DNA of 64,000 nt from Defluviicoccus sp. (GTDB taxonomy: Bacteria > Pseudomonadota > Alphaproteobacteria > MPNO01): NCBI GenBank assembly GCA_022826125.1, contig JAJDVM010000217.1:1-64000 (forward strand). The letters run 5' to 3'. Both the position numbers and the translations under genes were made by a program. A model generated the notes under the pieces. That model did not search any database. It had not been told where the DNA came from and was given only the letters and a program-made list of their open reading frames with translations. Position 1 is the stretch's first letter. Every line of letters begins with the position of its first letter. Of this stretch, positions 2 through 6,733 are shown in pieces.

Positions 2-212
2 GATCTCACCGATCGCCCGCTGACCGGGTCCGCCACCTGGCTCGGCATCATGGTGGGAACGCCGGTTGTCGGGGACGATCGCGGCGACCGGCTGGTCGGG
101 ACGGCGGCGCTGAACTACGGCATGCCGACCGGCGGGCTCGACGTCGGGTTCAGCGGCATCAAGAACATCGACCGCGGGACGGCTCATTCGACGGAGGCGA
201 TGCTCTTCACCG
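2..212 (+). pseudogene. 5' fragment (runs off the window) of a TbpB-like/Slam-type surface lipoprotein gene interrupted by an IS1595-family element
   Basis: Frame 2 reads DLTDRPLTGSATWLGIMVGTPVVGDDRGDRLVGTAALNYGMPTGGLDVGFSGIKNIDRGTAHSTEAMLFTG, then a TAG (221-223) inside the IS end; the frame continues exactly at 3337 when the IS and one TSD copy are removed. Confidence 0.75.
205..212 (+). repeat. 8-bp target site duplication CTTCACCG (left copy)
   Basis: Identical to 3329-3336 and directly abuts the 25-bp terminal inverted repeat. Confidence 0.9.
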
Positions 213-244
213 GGGGATTATAGCGAATAGTCACATTCCGGCAA

Positions 245-427
245 TCAGTCCGCGCCCTCGCGCCGGACGTTGAAGGGCCGGAAGAACGCCCGCCGAATCG
301 TCTTCAACGATGCCCCCGGCATGTCGTGTTCCTTCTCCCGCTCCGCCTTCGGCGGCTGGTAACTCTGATCGGGGAGCGTGATCGTCCGGGGCTTGCGGAG
401 CTTCCCCCGTCTCGCCTTCGCCGTCAT
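245..427 (-). CDS. 60-aa passenger protein of the IS (unknown function)
   Basis: MTAKARRGKLRKPRTITLPDQSYQPPKAEREKEHDMPGASLKTIRRAFFRPFNVRREGAD; its ATG overlaps the stop of the upstream methyltransferase-HNH gene (ATGA). Confidence 0.7.
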   Translation of the reverse strand: MTAKARRGKLRKPRTITLPDQSYQPPKAEREKEHDMPGASLKTIRRAFFRPFNVRREGAD

Positions 428-1833
428 TGCGTCGCCCTCCATTCGGCCATGGTCTTCCCGCCCTTGCTCCGGTTGCAGCCGGAGCAAAGCAGTTGAAGGT
501 TGTCGGGATGATCGGTTCCGCCGCGCGAGCGGGGCAGCATGTGGTCGACGTCCATCACCCGGAACGGGAAATGCGTCTCGCACCCGGCGCACACGCCTTC
601 CTGTTCGCCGTAGAGGCGATGCCGGTGCGTCCGGTAGTTGGGAAGGTCGCCGAGGTCGGTGCGCGCCGGCGGGGCCGTCAGGGCCAGCGCGCCGCCCCAC
701 GGCATGGACCCCCGGTCGCCCGCGATCCGGTCATCAACGAGTTTCACCGCCAGCGCGGATAGATCGATTCCGACCCAGCGCCGGGACAGCCGATCCGCCG
801 CCACCAACGCCGTTGCGCAGCCGCAAAACGGGTCCAGAATCATGTCATCCGGTTTCGTGCTGGCGAGGATCACCCGCTCCAACAGCGCCAGCGGCTTTTG
901 CGTAGGAAACCCTGTCCGTTCCTTGGCCTGGGAGTTCACTGGCGGAATGTCGGTCCACACGTCCGGCGGGACCTGGCCGGGATTCGCGTGGAGATACCGC
1001 TTCAAGCGCGGCGTGCCGTTCGCCGTGAAAACGATCATGTCGGCGGCATCAAGCATATCGAGCCGCGCGAGGATGCTTTCCTCGGCGAGATAGTCGGGGA
1101 TGATGTTCTCGGCGATCCAAGCCGCGTAATCGCCGGTTTTCGGCACGCTCCAACACCGCCCTATGTCGGTCGGGTTCCAGCCCCGCCACGGTTGTCCGGC
1201 CTCGCCCTCGGTCGTCTTTGGGCCGGTCAAATCCGTGTCCTGATAGCGGCCACGATTGTCGGTTCGGCGATATTTCGCAGCATTCGATTCCGAAAGCGGA
1301 ACCCTTACCCCCCCCCGCTCTATGTCGGAGCCGTAGAACAGCAGCCGGTCGCCGGTGCGCCCGAACCGGCCCGCGTCGTTGTGGTTTCCGATCCGTTTCC
1401 AGACGATTTCGTTGCGGAACGCGGCCACGCCGAACACCGCGTCCATCAGCGCCCGGAGCCAATGCCCGGCGGCATCGTCGCAATGCAGATAAATTGAGCC
1501 GTCCGCTTTGAGGACCCGGCGCATTTCCAAGAGCCGGACGGCCATCATGATGAGATAGGACTGCATGGACTTGCCGTGCGCCTGCCGCGCGGCCTCGATC
1601 ACCGAATAGGCCGCCGGGTGGCGGTCGGCCAGCTCGCCGTGTTCGTGAACGTCCACGTCCGATAGCGTCCAAGTGTCCTTGAACGCCGCGCCCGCCGCTT
1701 CCGAGCCGATGGGAGCCGCGTAGTCTCGATTGCTGTTGAACGGCGTGAGGTCGATACAGGCATCGTTCATGCCGCGCATGACGGGGAGATTGTCGCCCGT
1801 CCAGACCGTGCCGGACGCGAAATTGGCGCTCAT
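424..1833 (-). CDS. Beta-class DNA methyltransferase fused to a C-terminal HNH endonuclease domain (IS passenger); methyltransferase motif IV looks deleted
   Basis: AdoMet motif LDPFCGCATALVAADRLSRRWVGIDL; HNH part CAGCETHFPF..DVDHMLPRSRGGTDHPDNLQLLCSGCNRSKG; expected DPPF region reads CIDLTPFNSNRDY. Start set at MSANFASG, ATGA-coupled to the previous gene. Confidence 0.85.
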   Translation of the reverse strand: MSANFASGTVWTGDNLPVMRGMNDACIDLTPFNSNRDYAAPIGSEAAGAAFKDTWTLSDVDVHEHGELADRHPAAYSVIEAARQAHGKSMQSYLIMMAVRLLEMRRVLKADGSIYLHCDDAAGHWLRALMDAVFGVAAFRNEIVWKRIGNHNDAGRFGRTGDRLLFYGSDIERGGVRVPLSESNAAKYRRTDNRGRYQDTDLTGPKTTEGEAGQPWRGWNPTDIGRCWSVPKTGDYAAWIAENIIPDYLAEESILARLDMLDAADMIVFTANGTPRLKRYLHANPGQVPPDVWTDIPPVNSQAKERTGFPTQKPLALLERVILASTKPDDMILDPFCGCATALVAADRLSRRWVGIDLSALAVKLVDDRIAGDRGSMPWGGALALTAPPARTDLGDLPNYRTHRHRLYGEQEGVCAGCETHFPFRVMDVDHMLPRSRGGTDHPDNLQLLCSGCNRSKGGKTMAEWRATQ

Positions 1834-2258
1834 TCGAAGAACAGTTTGCCGAGCGATCCGCGCCGGAGTTCCAGCGTGGAAATGCTCATTTCGTCCAACG
1901 TGATCGAGCATCGGAGTTGATTGTGATCCCAGCCGAGGATGACTTCGCCAATCGGCTGTTCGGAGTAGAGCGCGCGGCCCCCACCGTTCCGATAGTGGAG
2001 CGACACGGAAACCGACGATTCGCCGCTCGGCTTGAACGACACGAAAGCATCGGCCTCGGTCGCCCCTTTGAGTCGCCGGAACACGCGGAGGAACGCGGCC
2101 TCATCCTCGGACGAAAGGGAGAACGACTTGTCCGGCTCAAACTGCTTATTGGCCTCGATCACGTCCCGACAGATTTCGGCGCGGAGCTTGCGAAGGAAGC
2201 CGGACGGCGTGCACTCGGCACGGACCCGAACCCAGTTGTCCTCGGCCGCGCCCGTCAT
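1830..2258 (-). CDS. 142-aa passenger protein of the IS (unknown function)
   Basis: MTGAAEDNWVRVRAECTPSGFLRKLRAEICRDV...; ATGA overlaps at both ends. Confidence 0.75.
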   Translation of the reverse strand: MTGAAEDNWVRVRAECTPSGFLRKLRAEICRDVIEANKQFEPDKSFSLSSEDEAAFLRVFRRLKGATEADAFVSFKPSGESSVSVSLHYRNGGGRALYSEQPIGEVILGWDHNQLRCSITLDEMSISTLELRRGSLGKLFFE

Positions 2259-3250
2259 GACCGGGCTCCGCTCGACAGGCCGTTGTCGGCGATCAGTTCC
2301 CGATACCGCAGCCGCTTGCCCTGCATCCCCGAGACGATCCCGGCCATTTGGTCGACGGTATCGGCTTCGCGGTCATTGTGCCGTCCGGCGAATTCCGTGA
2401 CATAGCGATCGAGGTGCTTGGGGCTGAACTTGTGATAGATGCCATGCTGCCCGCGCTTGAACATCGACCACAGTGCCTCAATCCCGTTGGTATGGGCATC
2501 GCCGCGGACGTATTCGGAAGCCGAGTGATTGACTGATTCGTGATCGAACCATGGATCGAGCGCGTTGTAGACGGCGGCATCGTCGGTATACGCCTTCGCG
2601 CCGATCCGGGTTTTCTCCGCGACGAACCCGGCGACGTGCGGCGTGTCCGTCCGGGTGACATGACGGGCCGCGACCTTGTTCGTCGCGCGGTCTTTCACGC
2701 CGACCACGGCTTCCATGTCCACCGCGCCGCGCCCGGTCGCCGCCTTGCGTTCCGCGTTGCTCTTGTTCTTCCGCTTCCCGCCCACGTAAGTCTCGTCTGC
2801 CTCGACTGGCCCGGCGAACGGCCCGGTCTCGGCTTCCATCGCCAGCCGCAGCCGGTGCAGCATGAACCATGCCGCTTTCTGACTGATCCCCAATTCGCGA
2901 TGCAGCCGCATGGACGAGACGCCCTTGATATTCGTCGTGAACAGGTAAATCCCGACCGCCCATGCCCGGTATTTCAGGTTCGACCCTTCCATCACCGTGC
3001 CGGTCTTGATCGAGAACATGGTCTTGCTTTTGCCGGTCATGCAGTCGCGGCAGCGGTGCGTCATCGTCCGATGCTTGATCCCGGACTGGACGTTCACCGA
3101 TCCGCATTTCGGGCAATGCGGGCCGTCCGGCCAACGCTGCGACGCGATCCAGTCCCGCGCCGTGTCTTCATCGCGGAACATGTCGGCGACCTCCATGAAG
3201 GTCAGTCCCTTGCGATGCGATTTTCCGGGTGCCTTGCGAGCCATCTTCAA
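2255..3250 (-). CDS. IS1595-family (ISXO2-like) transposase
   Basis: N-terminal zinc ribbon CPKCGS..HRCRDC; core VEADETYVGGKRK, AYTDDAAVYN, HTNGIEALWSMFKRGQHGIYHKFSPKHLDRYVTEFAGRHN. Confidence 0.95.
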   Translation of the reverse strand: MKMARKAPGKSHRKGLTFMEVADMFRDEDTARDWIASQRWPDGPHCPKCGSVNVQSGIKHRTMTHRCRDCMTGKSKTMFSIKTGTVMEGSNLKYRAWAVGIYLFTTNIKGVSSMRLHRELGISQKAAWFMLHRLRLAMEAETGPFAGPVEADETYVGGKRKNKSNAERKAATGRGAVDMEAVVGVKDRATNKVAARHVTRTDTPHVAGFVAEKTRIGAKAYTDDAAVYNALDPWFDHESVNHSASEYVRGDAHTNGIEALWSMFKRGQHGIYHKFSPKHLDRYVTEFAGRHNDREADTVDQMAGIVSGMQGKRLRYRELIADNGLSSGARS

Positions 3251-3267
3251 TCCCCTTGTGTGACTAT

Positions 3268-3296
3268 AAGATAGGGATTGCCGGGCCGGAGTTCAA
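3268..3296 (-). promoter_or_regulatory. Putative sigma70-like promoter of the IS transposase operon
   Basis: On the minus strand TTGAAC (3296-3291), 17-nt spacer, TATCTT (3273-3268), upstream of the AAGGGG ribosome-binding site and ATG. Confidence 0.5.
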
Positions 3297-3328
3297 GCGA
3301 AAAATGTGACTATTCGCTATAATCCCCC

Positions 3329-3336
3329 TTCACCGG
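3329..3336 (+). repeat. 8-bp target site duplication CTTCACCG (right copy)
   Basis: Identical to 205-212. Confidence 0.9.
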
Positions 3337-3484
3337 CCTCGAGGTCGGCCCGGACGGGACGTTCTCGCGGGGCCAGTCGGGCGCGCGTATCCAGGGCGGC
3401 TTCTACGGTCCGGGCCACGCCGAGGCGGGGGGCATCTTCGAGCAGTCCGACATCGTCGGCGCCTTCGGCGCGAAGAAGCTGTGA
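3337..3484 (+). pseudogene. 3' fragment of the IS-interrupted TbpB-like surface lipoprotein gene
   Basis: Continues the frame: GLEVGPDGTFSRGQSGARIQGGFYGPGHAEAGGIFEQSDIVGAFGAKKL stop; the GGFYGPGHAE.GGIFE..DIVGAFGAKK ending is typical of TbpB-like barrel domains. Confidence 0.8.
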
Positions 3485-4233: not shown

Positions 4234-5322
4234 TCAGAATATACTGGCGGTTCGGTTGTCCGTTTCTCTTCCCGCGTCGGTTTCGGTCCGACGTATGAGA
4301 GCAGGCCGCCGCCTGCCGCCGTCTTCGGGAAGCGGCGCGGACTTGCGCTCGTCGCTGCCGTTCCAGAGCAAGCCGGGATGTGCAACACGGTAATACCCTT
4401 CATCTCTCTTCGACGTTCTTGGTTTCGGCGGCTCCCTTTCCGTCTCGAACCGTCCCTTCGCGCCTTGGAGGTATTTCTCGACGAGCTCTACGCATATCCA
4501 CTTGCGGCCGAGACGCTCGGCAACCTCGCCGGTGACGCAACTCCCGCCGAAGGGGTCGAAAACCATGTCTTCCGGGTCGGTCAGCATACGGATGAAATAC
4601 TCAGGCAAGGCGGCGGGGAAGCGGGCCGGATGTGCCTTGATACCTTTCTCCTTGCAGTAGCGCAGGTAACCGCTGTTGCTCTCCGTATTGGGTATGGCGA
4701 TCAGGTTCGGAGGAATGGAGGCCCCGTTATCGATGGCGAACTTCTCGCTGATGTCATGCCCCGACGGCCTTAGCTTCGCCCTGTAGCCATTGCTCAGGAG
4801 CGTCTTCATGCTCTCGCTGTAGGGTTGAAGGACGCGTCGGTTGCTCGCGCGTGGCCACGGCGTTTTGGATAACCACCACACGGTGTTGATTCCGTCCTTC
4901 ACGCGGATGCGACGGATGTTCACCCATTCGGCCGGTGCCGGCAGTTTCGACGGATTCCACCAGTAGAATTCCTGGGCGAGGTGAAAGCCGTATTCCTCGC
5001 ACAACATGATCAGGAGCTTAAAGTGATAGAGGCTGCGTTCCGGAAGGCCCGGCTTCCATGCGCCGCCGAGGTCGATCACGAGGCTGCCGTCGTCTTTCAG
5101 GATGCGGTGGAACTGCTCCGCGAAATCCCTGAACCATTCGAGATAGGCGTCTTCCTGTTCATTCCCATAGTCCTTCTTGCGTGTCAGCGCGAAAGGAGGA
5201 CTCGTCATGATGAGGTCGACGGACGCCGTTCCGGTCCGCTCCATCACGTCCAAGCTGTCAGCGTGGTGGATGCACCCGAGAGGGGTTCGGTGATAAACGG
5301 TCGGCAGTTGGCCGTTCGTCAT
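4234..5322 (-). CDS. Site-specific DNA methyltransferase (TSPPF motif; probably N4-cytosine, beta class)
   Basis: VDLIMTSPPFALTRKKDYG; C-terminal DPFGGSCVTGEVAERLGRKWICVELVEKY; next to a putative restriction endonuclease. Confidence 0.88.
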   Translation of the reverse strand: MTNGQLPTVYHRTPLGCIHHADSLDVMERTGTASVDLIMTSPPFALTRKKDYGNEQEDAYLEWFRDFAEQFHRILKDDGSLVIDLGGAWKPGLPERSLYHFKLLIMLCEEYGFHLAQEFYWWNPSKLPAPAEWVNIRRIRVKDGINTVWWLSKTPWPRASNRRVLQPYSESMKTLLSNGYRAKLRPSGHDISEKFAIDNGASIPPNLIAIPNTESNSGYLRYCKEKGIKAHPARFPAALPEYFIRMLTDPEDMVFDPFGGSCVTGEVAERLGRKWICVELVEKYLQGAKGRFETEREPPKPRTSKRDEGYYRVAHPGLLWNGSDERKSAPLPEDGGRRRPALIRRTETDAGRETDNRTASIF

Positions 5323-5335
5323 TGTCCTGTCTTCC

Positions 5336-6733
5336 CTAGAGTTCGAGCTTCTTGAGTTTCATCGCGTGACGGGCCTCGCGGTCGAAGGCACGCAAAATCG
5401 CGGCGGGACGCTCGCCGATGGATTTCAGGTCGCTCCCATCGAGCATGATCACGGCCAGGTTTGAATCCGCCATGATCCTATTGGCGTAGCGGCGCGCTTC
5501 GCTGCCGATCTGGCCAGTTGTGACGACGACAATGACGTTGCTTTTCAGGACATGCGTCAGCCCCACTTCCTTTGCCACGTCGTCGAGCGAGACGCGGGCG
5601 GTATTCTTGCACTGCACCTGCCAGCGGGAGAAAACAAGGCGGGCATTCTCGAAAATCAGGTCGACCTCCGCGCCTCCCGTCTGATTCGCCCGCAATCGGG
5701 TTGCGATGAAGGTCATGTCGAGTAGGCGCATGATCTTGAAGGCGAGGGCTTCGAGCGCCAGTCCCGCCTTGTGGCGATCCTTGCTCTTCATTTCTTTCAG
5801 GATGGCGGAAAGCGGCGTGCGCAACAGTGCCAGAAGCTTGGGATCCGTCTGTCCTTTGAGTTGCTCGATGAGGGGATCGACCACATCGGCGACCAGCTTG
5901 GACGTCGGGGAAACCAGGAAAGGTTTGGCACCGCGACCCGAGGTGGTCTTTGTGGCGGTGATATAGCCGGCGTCTTGCAGAGCGTGGAGCACAAGCTTCG
6001 GCAGGCTCTTTTCGGGGAACCTCACGCCATAGGTCGCTGCGGCGAGCCTGGCAATTTCGTTTGTGGGCTGGGGCTTCGTCGTCCCCGTGTTGGCGAGCGC
6101 TCGCAGGAACGCGCGTTGCTCCGGCGTAAAGTCGGCCAGCACCTCGAACTCGTCAGGACCGAGCCCGAGAATGTCTTCGATTTTGTGAGGATCGACCTGC
6201 CAGCGCTTGCCGACGAAGACGCCTGCCTTGGCAAGCCAGAGGCGCATCATGCTCGGGTGTTTCCCGCCCGACGGGTAGTGGACGCCGCGTGCGGCGAGCC
6301 CCTCGCGCAGCGTGGTAAGATTGACCCGCTCGCCTGCTGCCGCCATGTCCTGGATGCAGCGCACTAGTGTCATGCCGTGCAGGTTCAGGAGAATGTGCTT
6401 TGCAAGCTGGCGGTAAAGGGTGGCTTCGTCGTCCTTCGAAGCAAGAAGTTCTCGTCCGAAGTCGGTAAGGGCGGCGTCGCGGTCGATGATGCCGTAGGCG
6501 ATCATCCCCAGCTTCGTGTTGTTGGCGAGTTTGTTCCGGTTGTAATCGTCGGTCTCGTGTTTCTCGAAAAAACCGGCCCGCACGGCTTGCTCGAAAGCGT
6601 GCCAGTCGCCGCCGTGAGTGTCGGCCAATTCCAAAACCGCCGTAAGCTCGATCTGCGAGGGCGAAAACTCGCTGCCGAAGGGAAGGTCGCTCTTCTTGCT
6701 CACTCTTTTCCCATCCAACGGTTCGTTCGACAC
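5336..6733 (-). CDS. Putative type II restriction endonuclease (PD-(D/E)XK, Mrr-like C-terminal domain)
   Basis: C-terminal GLALEALAFKIMRLL..GGAEVDLIFENARLVFSRWQVQCKNTARVSLDDVAKEVGL; 13 nt upstream of the methyltransferase. Confidence 0.8.
   Translation of the reverse strand: MSNEPLDGKRVSKKSDLPFGSEFSPSQIELTAVLELADTHGGDWHAFEQAVRAGFFEKHETDDYNRNKLANNTKLGMIAYGIIDRDAALTDFGRELLASKDDEATLYRQLAKHILLNLHGMTLVRCIQDMAAAGERVNLTTLREGLAARGVHYPSGGKHPSMMRLWLAKAGVFVGKRWQVDPHKIEDILGLGPDEFEVLADFTPEQRAFLRALANTGTTKPQPTNEIARLAAATYGVRFPEKSLPKLVLHALQDAGYITATKTTSGRGAKPFLVSPTSKLVADVVDPLIEQLKGQTDPKLLALLRTPLSAILKEMKSKDRHKAGLALEALAFKIMRLLDMTFIATRLRANQTGGAEVDLIFENARLVFSRWQVQCKNTARVSLDDVAKEVGLTHVLKSNVIVVVTTGQIGSEARRYANRIMADSNLAVIMLDGSDLKSIGERPAAILRAFDREARHAMKLKKLEL

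Follow-up and report, generated by a model that had tools for sequence, protein, structure and literature searches.

The window, that is, the whole 64,000-nucleotide stretch of Defluviicoccus sp. DNA analysed here, comes from one contig of an assembly with 377 contigs and carries near its left end a complete IS1595-type element, inserted in a protein-coding gene. The genes and features at this locus are as follows.

2 to 212, plus strand: interrupted target gene, left part (the frame resumes at 3336)
205 to 212: target-site duplication CTTCACCG, left copy
213 to 3327: complete IS1595-type element, 3115 bp, with perfect 25-bp inverted ends and an 8-bp duplication
213 to 237, plus strand: terminal inverted repeat GGGGATTATAGCGAATAGTCACATT
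424 to 1833, minus strand: beta-class DNA methyltransferase fused to a C-terminal HNH nuclease, 469 aa (Pfam N6_N4_Mtase, 115 bits; HNH, 42 bits)
442 to 591, minus strand: HNH nuclease domain, every conserved residue kept (alignment, Pfam)
805 to 834, minus strand: AdoMet-binding motif I DPFCGCATAL, intact (alignment)
976 to 1326 (approximate), minus strand: target-recognition region, variable among relatives (alignment; domain swap in relatives)
1738 to 1758, minus strand: motif IV remnant CIDLTPF, with the 12-bp deletion junction between 1746 and 1745
1830 to 2258, minus strand: orf2, 142 aa, no assigned family, with ATGA overlaps to the transposase stop and the methyltransferase start
2255 to 3244, minus strand: IS1595-family transposase (ATG at 3244; TTG at 3250 is also possible; Pfam DDE_Tnp_IS1595 and Zn_ribbon_IS1595, NCBIfam transpos_IS1595)
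3303 to 3327, minus strand: terminal inverted repeat, identical on the other strand
3328 to 3335: target-site duplication CTTCACCG, right copy
3336 to 3484, plus strand: interrupted target gene, right part

The terminal inverted repeats match at 25 of 25 bp, and the transposase was recognised by PF12762 (5.2e-35), PF12760 (4.7e-09) and NF033547 (166.6 bits against a cut-off of 75). The inverted repeats and the target duplication confirm the view of a first-pass annotation of this DNA that the methyltransferase is the passenger of an IS1595 element. Removal of the element and one duplication copy restores a single open frame, and the same target gene is uninterrupted, at 97% identity, in a species of the same genus (G003), which indicates a recent insertion of an element that still looks mobile. 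The interrupted gene, within which the contig starts, belongs to a multi-copy family in the genus, single genomes having as many as 12 matches. Two more IS1595 elements were observed in the same genome: one (L102:1455-4629) has the 8-bp duplication CTTCGATA and a lipoprotein-like passenger gene, and the other (L103:641-2965, 2325 bp) has the duplication TTCTCAAG and no methyltransferase. Just outside the element, at 4234-6733 on the minus strand, a second beta-type methyltransferase (TSPPF motif IV; PADLOC Type II, 404 bits) adjoins a gene with an Mrr_cat nuclease domain, the two forming a candidate two-gene restriction-modification pair.

Within the element, the transposase, orf2 and the methyltransferase-HNH gene are joined by an ATGA overlap at both junctions, which suggests that all three lie on a single transcript with coupled translation. 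The methyltransferase-HNH gene most likely starts at 1833, in the overlap with orf2, rather than at 1911. Profile and annotation searches with the window copy of orf2 gave no family match. As in the window, an orf2-like gene separates the transposase from the methyltransferase in L072 and L120; the homologues at this position, in L072 and L057/L120, are weak, a comparison of two sequences giving 21% identity with an E of 3e-6. The orf2-like small protein starts with [ND]WVxxRxxCT and ends with LF in the window (1830-2258), L072 (3863-4285) and L057 (617-1033).

The fusion protein shows the beta-class order, with the motif IV site (residues 28-32) followed by the recognition region and motif I (334-337), together with a match to PF01555. 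As the first-pass annotation had noted, DPFCGCATAL and the HNH box are present; the PF01844 match of 42 bits lies above the cut-off of 21.4, and all invariant H, N and Cys-pair columns are kept, so that, at the level of sequence, the fused nuclease looks intact as proposed. The catalytic (D/N/S)PP(Y/F) motif of beta-class amino-methyltransferases is absent, and CIDLTPF stands in its place, at residues 26-32 counted from the ATG at 1833 (positions 1758-1738, minus strand), within a few bases of the 1735-1757 first reported. The minus-strand codons at the site read GCC TGT ATC GAC CTC ACG CCG TTC AAC AGC AAT CGA.

We searched public genome contigs, together with the order and class to which the window's genome belongs, for relatives and built an alignment of 30 full-length proteins. 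DPPF stands at the corresponding place in all 29 other members, in the setting D-L-x-x-x-D-P-P-F-N, and the window protein has a gap of exactly 4 columns with undisturbed surroundings. Of the columns invariant in the other 29 members it departs from only two, those of the D and of the P next to it in DPPF. The missing DNA is 12 bp, in frame, corresponding to 4 residues, as judged from the DNA of the nearest relatives, for example GACCTGATCTATCTCGATCCGCCGTTC in L073. The comparison with homologous IS1595 passenger methyltransferases, a check proposed together with the original claim, thus upholds a clean 12-bp in-frame loss of motif IV. The assumed ancestral codons were right only in part: GAC had been supposed and most relatives have GAT, but GAT and GAC are both compatible with the loss of TCTATCTCGAYC. 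Slippage between repeats was ruled out as the origin of the deletion, there being no direct repeat of the right length across the junction. Searches of the window genome's own order and class, and of the orders to which the nearest relatives belong, turned up no other instance of the deletion. We therefore regard the 12-bp loss as genuine, peculiar to this copy among the aligned members and disabling for methylation; as a mutation it is ordinary, and more interest attaches to the protein family.

In beta-class enzymes, strand 4 ends in motif IV, the D and P of which hold the target amine. In AlphaFold models, the pLDDT over residues 31-60 was 49/37/53 for the window protein, a model that rests on relatives possessing motif IV, versus 77/73/76 for the intact L073 protein, and two short strands of the L073 model (37-40 and 51-54) are absent from that of the window protein. 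With the catalytic D-P gone as in no relative and both model confidence and two strands lost, the window methyltransferase is almost surely dead, as the first-pass annotation had predicted. Apart from the 12-bp deletion, the alignment and pN/pS revealed no further lesion in the gene. The window protein carries six substitutions, mostly mild, at positions invariant in its 14 nearest relatives, whereas other members carry 0-5, with one exception. In the HNH part, pN/pS between the window copy and its relatives is 0.09-0.19, similar to the values among intact genes; since synonymous sites are near saturation, these values are uninformative about lineage-specific relaxation.

In about ten further loci, too, the methyltransferase-HNH fusion accompanies an IS1595 transposase; it is co-directed with the transposase in L021, L070, L072, L074 and L120, as in the window, and convergent with it in L012, L017, L071, L098 and L099. 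Inverted repeats and a target duplication were detected in five of them (L012, L017, L070, L072 and L098). No relative was found on viral contigs, and those on plasmids all stayed under 60% identity and for the most part matched the methyltransferase portion alone. Both the methyltransferase and the HNH domain were identified by Pfam in 30 of the 30 aligned members. More distant homologues of the methyltransferase core, at about 34-43% identity, carry a C-terminal T5orf172/GIY-YIG-type domain (L088-L091 and L093) or an Mrr_cat domain (L048, L050 and L061) instead of HNH, and two of the ten scanned (L092 and L060) have no nuclease domain. Several copies of GIY-YIG- or Mrr_cat-fused methyltransferase cores per genome were also seen in G087 and G369. 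In one genome (G303), two IS1595 elements (L070:1801-4968 and L072:1176-5340) carry the same methyltransferase-HNH gene, the start of which is 97% and the end 91% identical between the copies, but the middle is unrelated (420 versus 294 bp). Because beta-class enzymes hold their recognition domain in the middle, this swap probably changes the specificity. The repeated joining of unrelated nucleases and the exchange of the recognition part fit a one-chain restriction-modification enzyme, and the intact relatives are most likely enzymes of this kind, with a recognition region shared with HNH.

Taken together, we consider it probable that the window gene is a recently inactivated cargo, early in decay, within an intact transposon, its methylation lost and its nuclease silent. 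Its intact relatives would combine a beta-class amino-methyltransferase core, a replaceable recognition region and a C-terminal HNH domain using that same region. In the window copy, strand 4 and motif IV have lost (I)YLDP through a single 12-bp in-frame deletion, and from the chemistry of DPPF/Y enzymes this should abolish methyl transfer. An active cognate nuclease would cut the unprotected chromosomal sites, so the nuclease half is most likely silent, whether misfolded, unexpressed or dependent on a competent methyltransferase half. Type II nucleases are highly toxic when their methyltransferase is missing (PMC3488263). We found neither a second copy nor a protecting methyltransferase paralogue in the genome, where no other match exceeds 37% or extends beyond 90 aa. 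In the closest clade, six members are intact (L012, L017, L073, L074, L078 and L079) and six are broken: the middle of L018 (the same record as L104) is gone, L021 and L100 carry frameshifts, and L022, L023 and L101 are fragments, so that loss of the gene appears to be a common fate. The fragment in L023 (578-921) has an independent motif IV lesion (LGSPF) followed by a frameshift. It is the toxicity without methylation, the lack of a protecting paralogue and the broken relatives that lead us to early decay with a silent nuclease. It counts against decay that the deletion is its sole positive sign and that the gene is otherwise as constrained as intact ones; if the gene is decaying, normal constraint and the lack of a second lesion imply that the inactivation is recent.

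The first-pass annotation had also offered repurposing during transposition. In that case the protein, its methylation no longer wanted, would live on as a nuclease or nickase, finding its former target through the preserved recognition region and serving, for example, in the cleavage of modified or foreign DNA or as an aid to transposition. Such a role would agree with the preservation of the HNH domain, the AdoMet motif and all other invariant columns, with the normal pN/pS and with the operon shared with the transposase. However, the deletion is confined to the window copy, an active cognate nuclease would attack a host whose genome yielded no protecting paralogue, many near relatives are visibly ruined genes, and related IS1595 elements without such a gene exist (L102 and L103). 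The deletion is unshared, the arrangement of orf2 and the transposase is ordinary, and broken genes make up about half of the closest relatives. Decay therefore explains the locus more simply, and repurposing, which nothing favours, is improbable. Its narrower form is very doubtful: a living, methylation-free and sequence-specific HNH nuclease or nickase, descended from a beta-class restriction-modification enzyme carried by a transposon, which the host would tolerate because its action is restricted to modified or mobile DNA and which would be retained for helping the element to spread.

It is likewise unlikely that the intact relatives are solitary methyltransferases or homing-like nucleases, in which case the loss of methylation would be neutral to the host and uninformative about the nuclease. 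The members are known from sequence alone and ride on transposons, and HNH domains are also common in homing nucleases; nevertheless, one core has been joined to three kinds of nuclease domain, and the swap of the recognition region between near-identical copies fits restriction-modification better. An artefact of sequencing or assembly, with DPPF in the organism's true gene, is quite unlikely: the assembly is a draft with an estimated contamination of 8.2%, but a clean 12-bp in-frame loss at a site with neither homopolymer nor direct repeat would be an untypical consensus error, and the rest of the element is flawless. The first motif IV residue may vary (D, N or S) in amino-methyltransferases, and the window model still has a strand (27-33) ending at the motif IV site; even so, it is hardly credible that LTPF works or that the upstream D28 takes over and methylation persists, because the first motif position has no D, N or S, four core-strand residues are gone and the model confidence collapses just beyond.

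The broken copy is a natural test of whether a fusion of this type can lose modification first with the cell surviving. More broadly, compact proteins that unite methyltransferase and nuclease in one chain, and whose recognition regions are exchangeable, travel on IS1595 transposons, and their methyltransferase core is found joined to nuclease domains of the HNH, GIY-YIG or Mrr type. The window element shares with the IS1595 family, including its members with passenger genes, the transposase domains, the 8-bp target duplication, the inverted repeats and a passenger beside the transposase, but its passenger is a methyltransferase-HNH fusion accompanied by orf2. The literature searched, which did not include the founding 2009 paper, held nothing specific on methyltransferase cargo of IS1595 elements or on a methyltransferase-HNH fusion. 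The HNH domain resembles those of the Gme HNH nickase, IscB and Cas9 in its fold, Cys pairs and H and N residues, but the likeness is at the domain level and there are no guide RNA parts here. An IscB or Cas9 identity was rejected, the matches being confined to the HNH domain. The best structure and sequence matches of the methyltransferase are beta-class N6-adenine methyltransferases (M.BceJIV, M.MboIIA, M.RsrI, CcrM and EcoP15I Mod), which have the same fold and the same order of motif IV, TRD and motif I; these enzymes have DPPY/F and no HNH domain, whereas the window copy has lost motif IV.

Type IIG/IIC enzymes (MmeI, BpuSI, BcgI and BtgZI) likewise combine nuclease and methyltransferase in one chain, as do all 30 members here. 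The known enzymes share one exchangeable recognition part between the two activities, and exchange of domains in combined restriction-modification enzymes alters both activities together (PMC4081073); in the present family the recognition region is swapped as a unit between L070 and L072 and may likewise serve both. Known Type IIG/IIC enzymes mostly have an N-terminal PD-(D/E)XK nuclease and a gamma-class methyltransferase, BtgZI being the one alpha-class case (PMC4081073), but the present family has a beta-class methyltransferase and a C-terminal HNH domain, and the gamma-class (rarely alpha) methyltransferase with PD-(D/E)XK does not occur in it. Working methylation, another feature of these enzymes, would be missing from the window copy through the deletion of motif IV, which is intact in its relatives. 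We do not file the family under Type IIG/IIC, since one defining feature is absent and its members are sequence predictions; judged by its domains, the beta-class/HNH form is a variant of combined restriction-modification enzymes. Should the intact members prove able both to cleave and to modify DNA, transposition would be spreading a beta-class equivalent of Type IIG, from which new specificities could arise.
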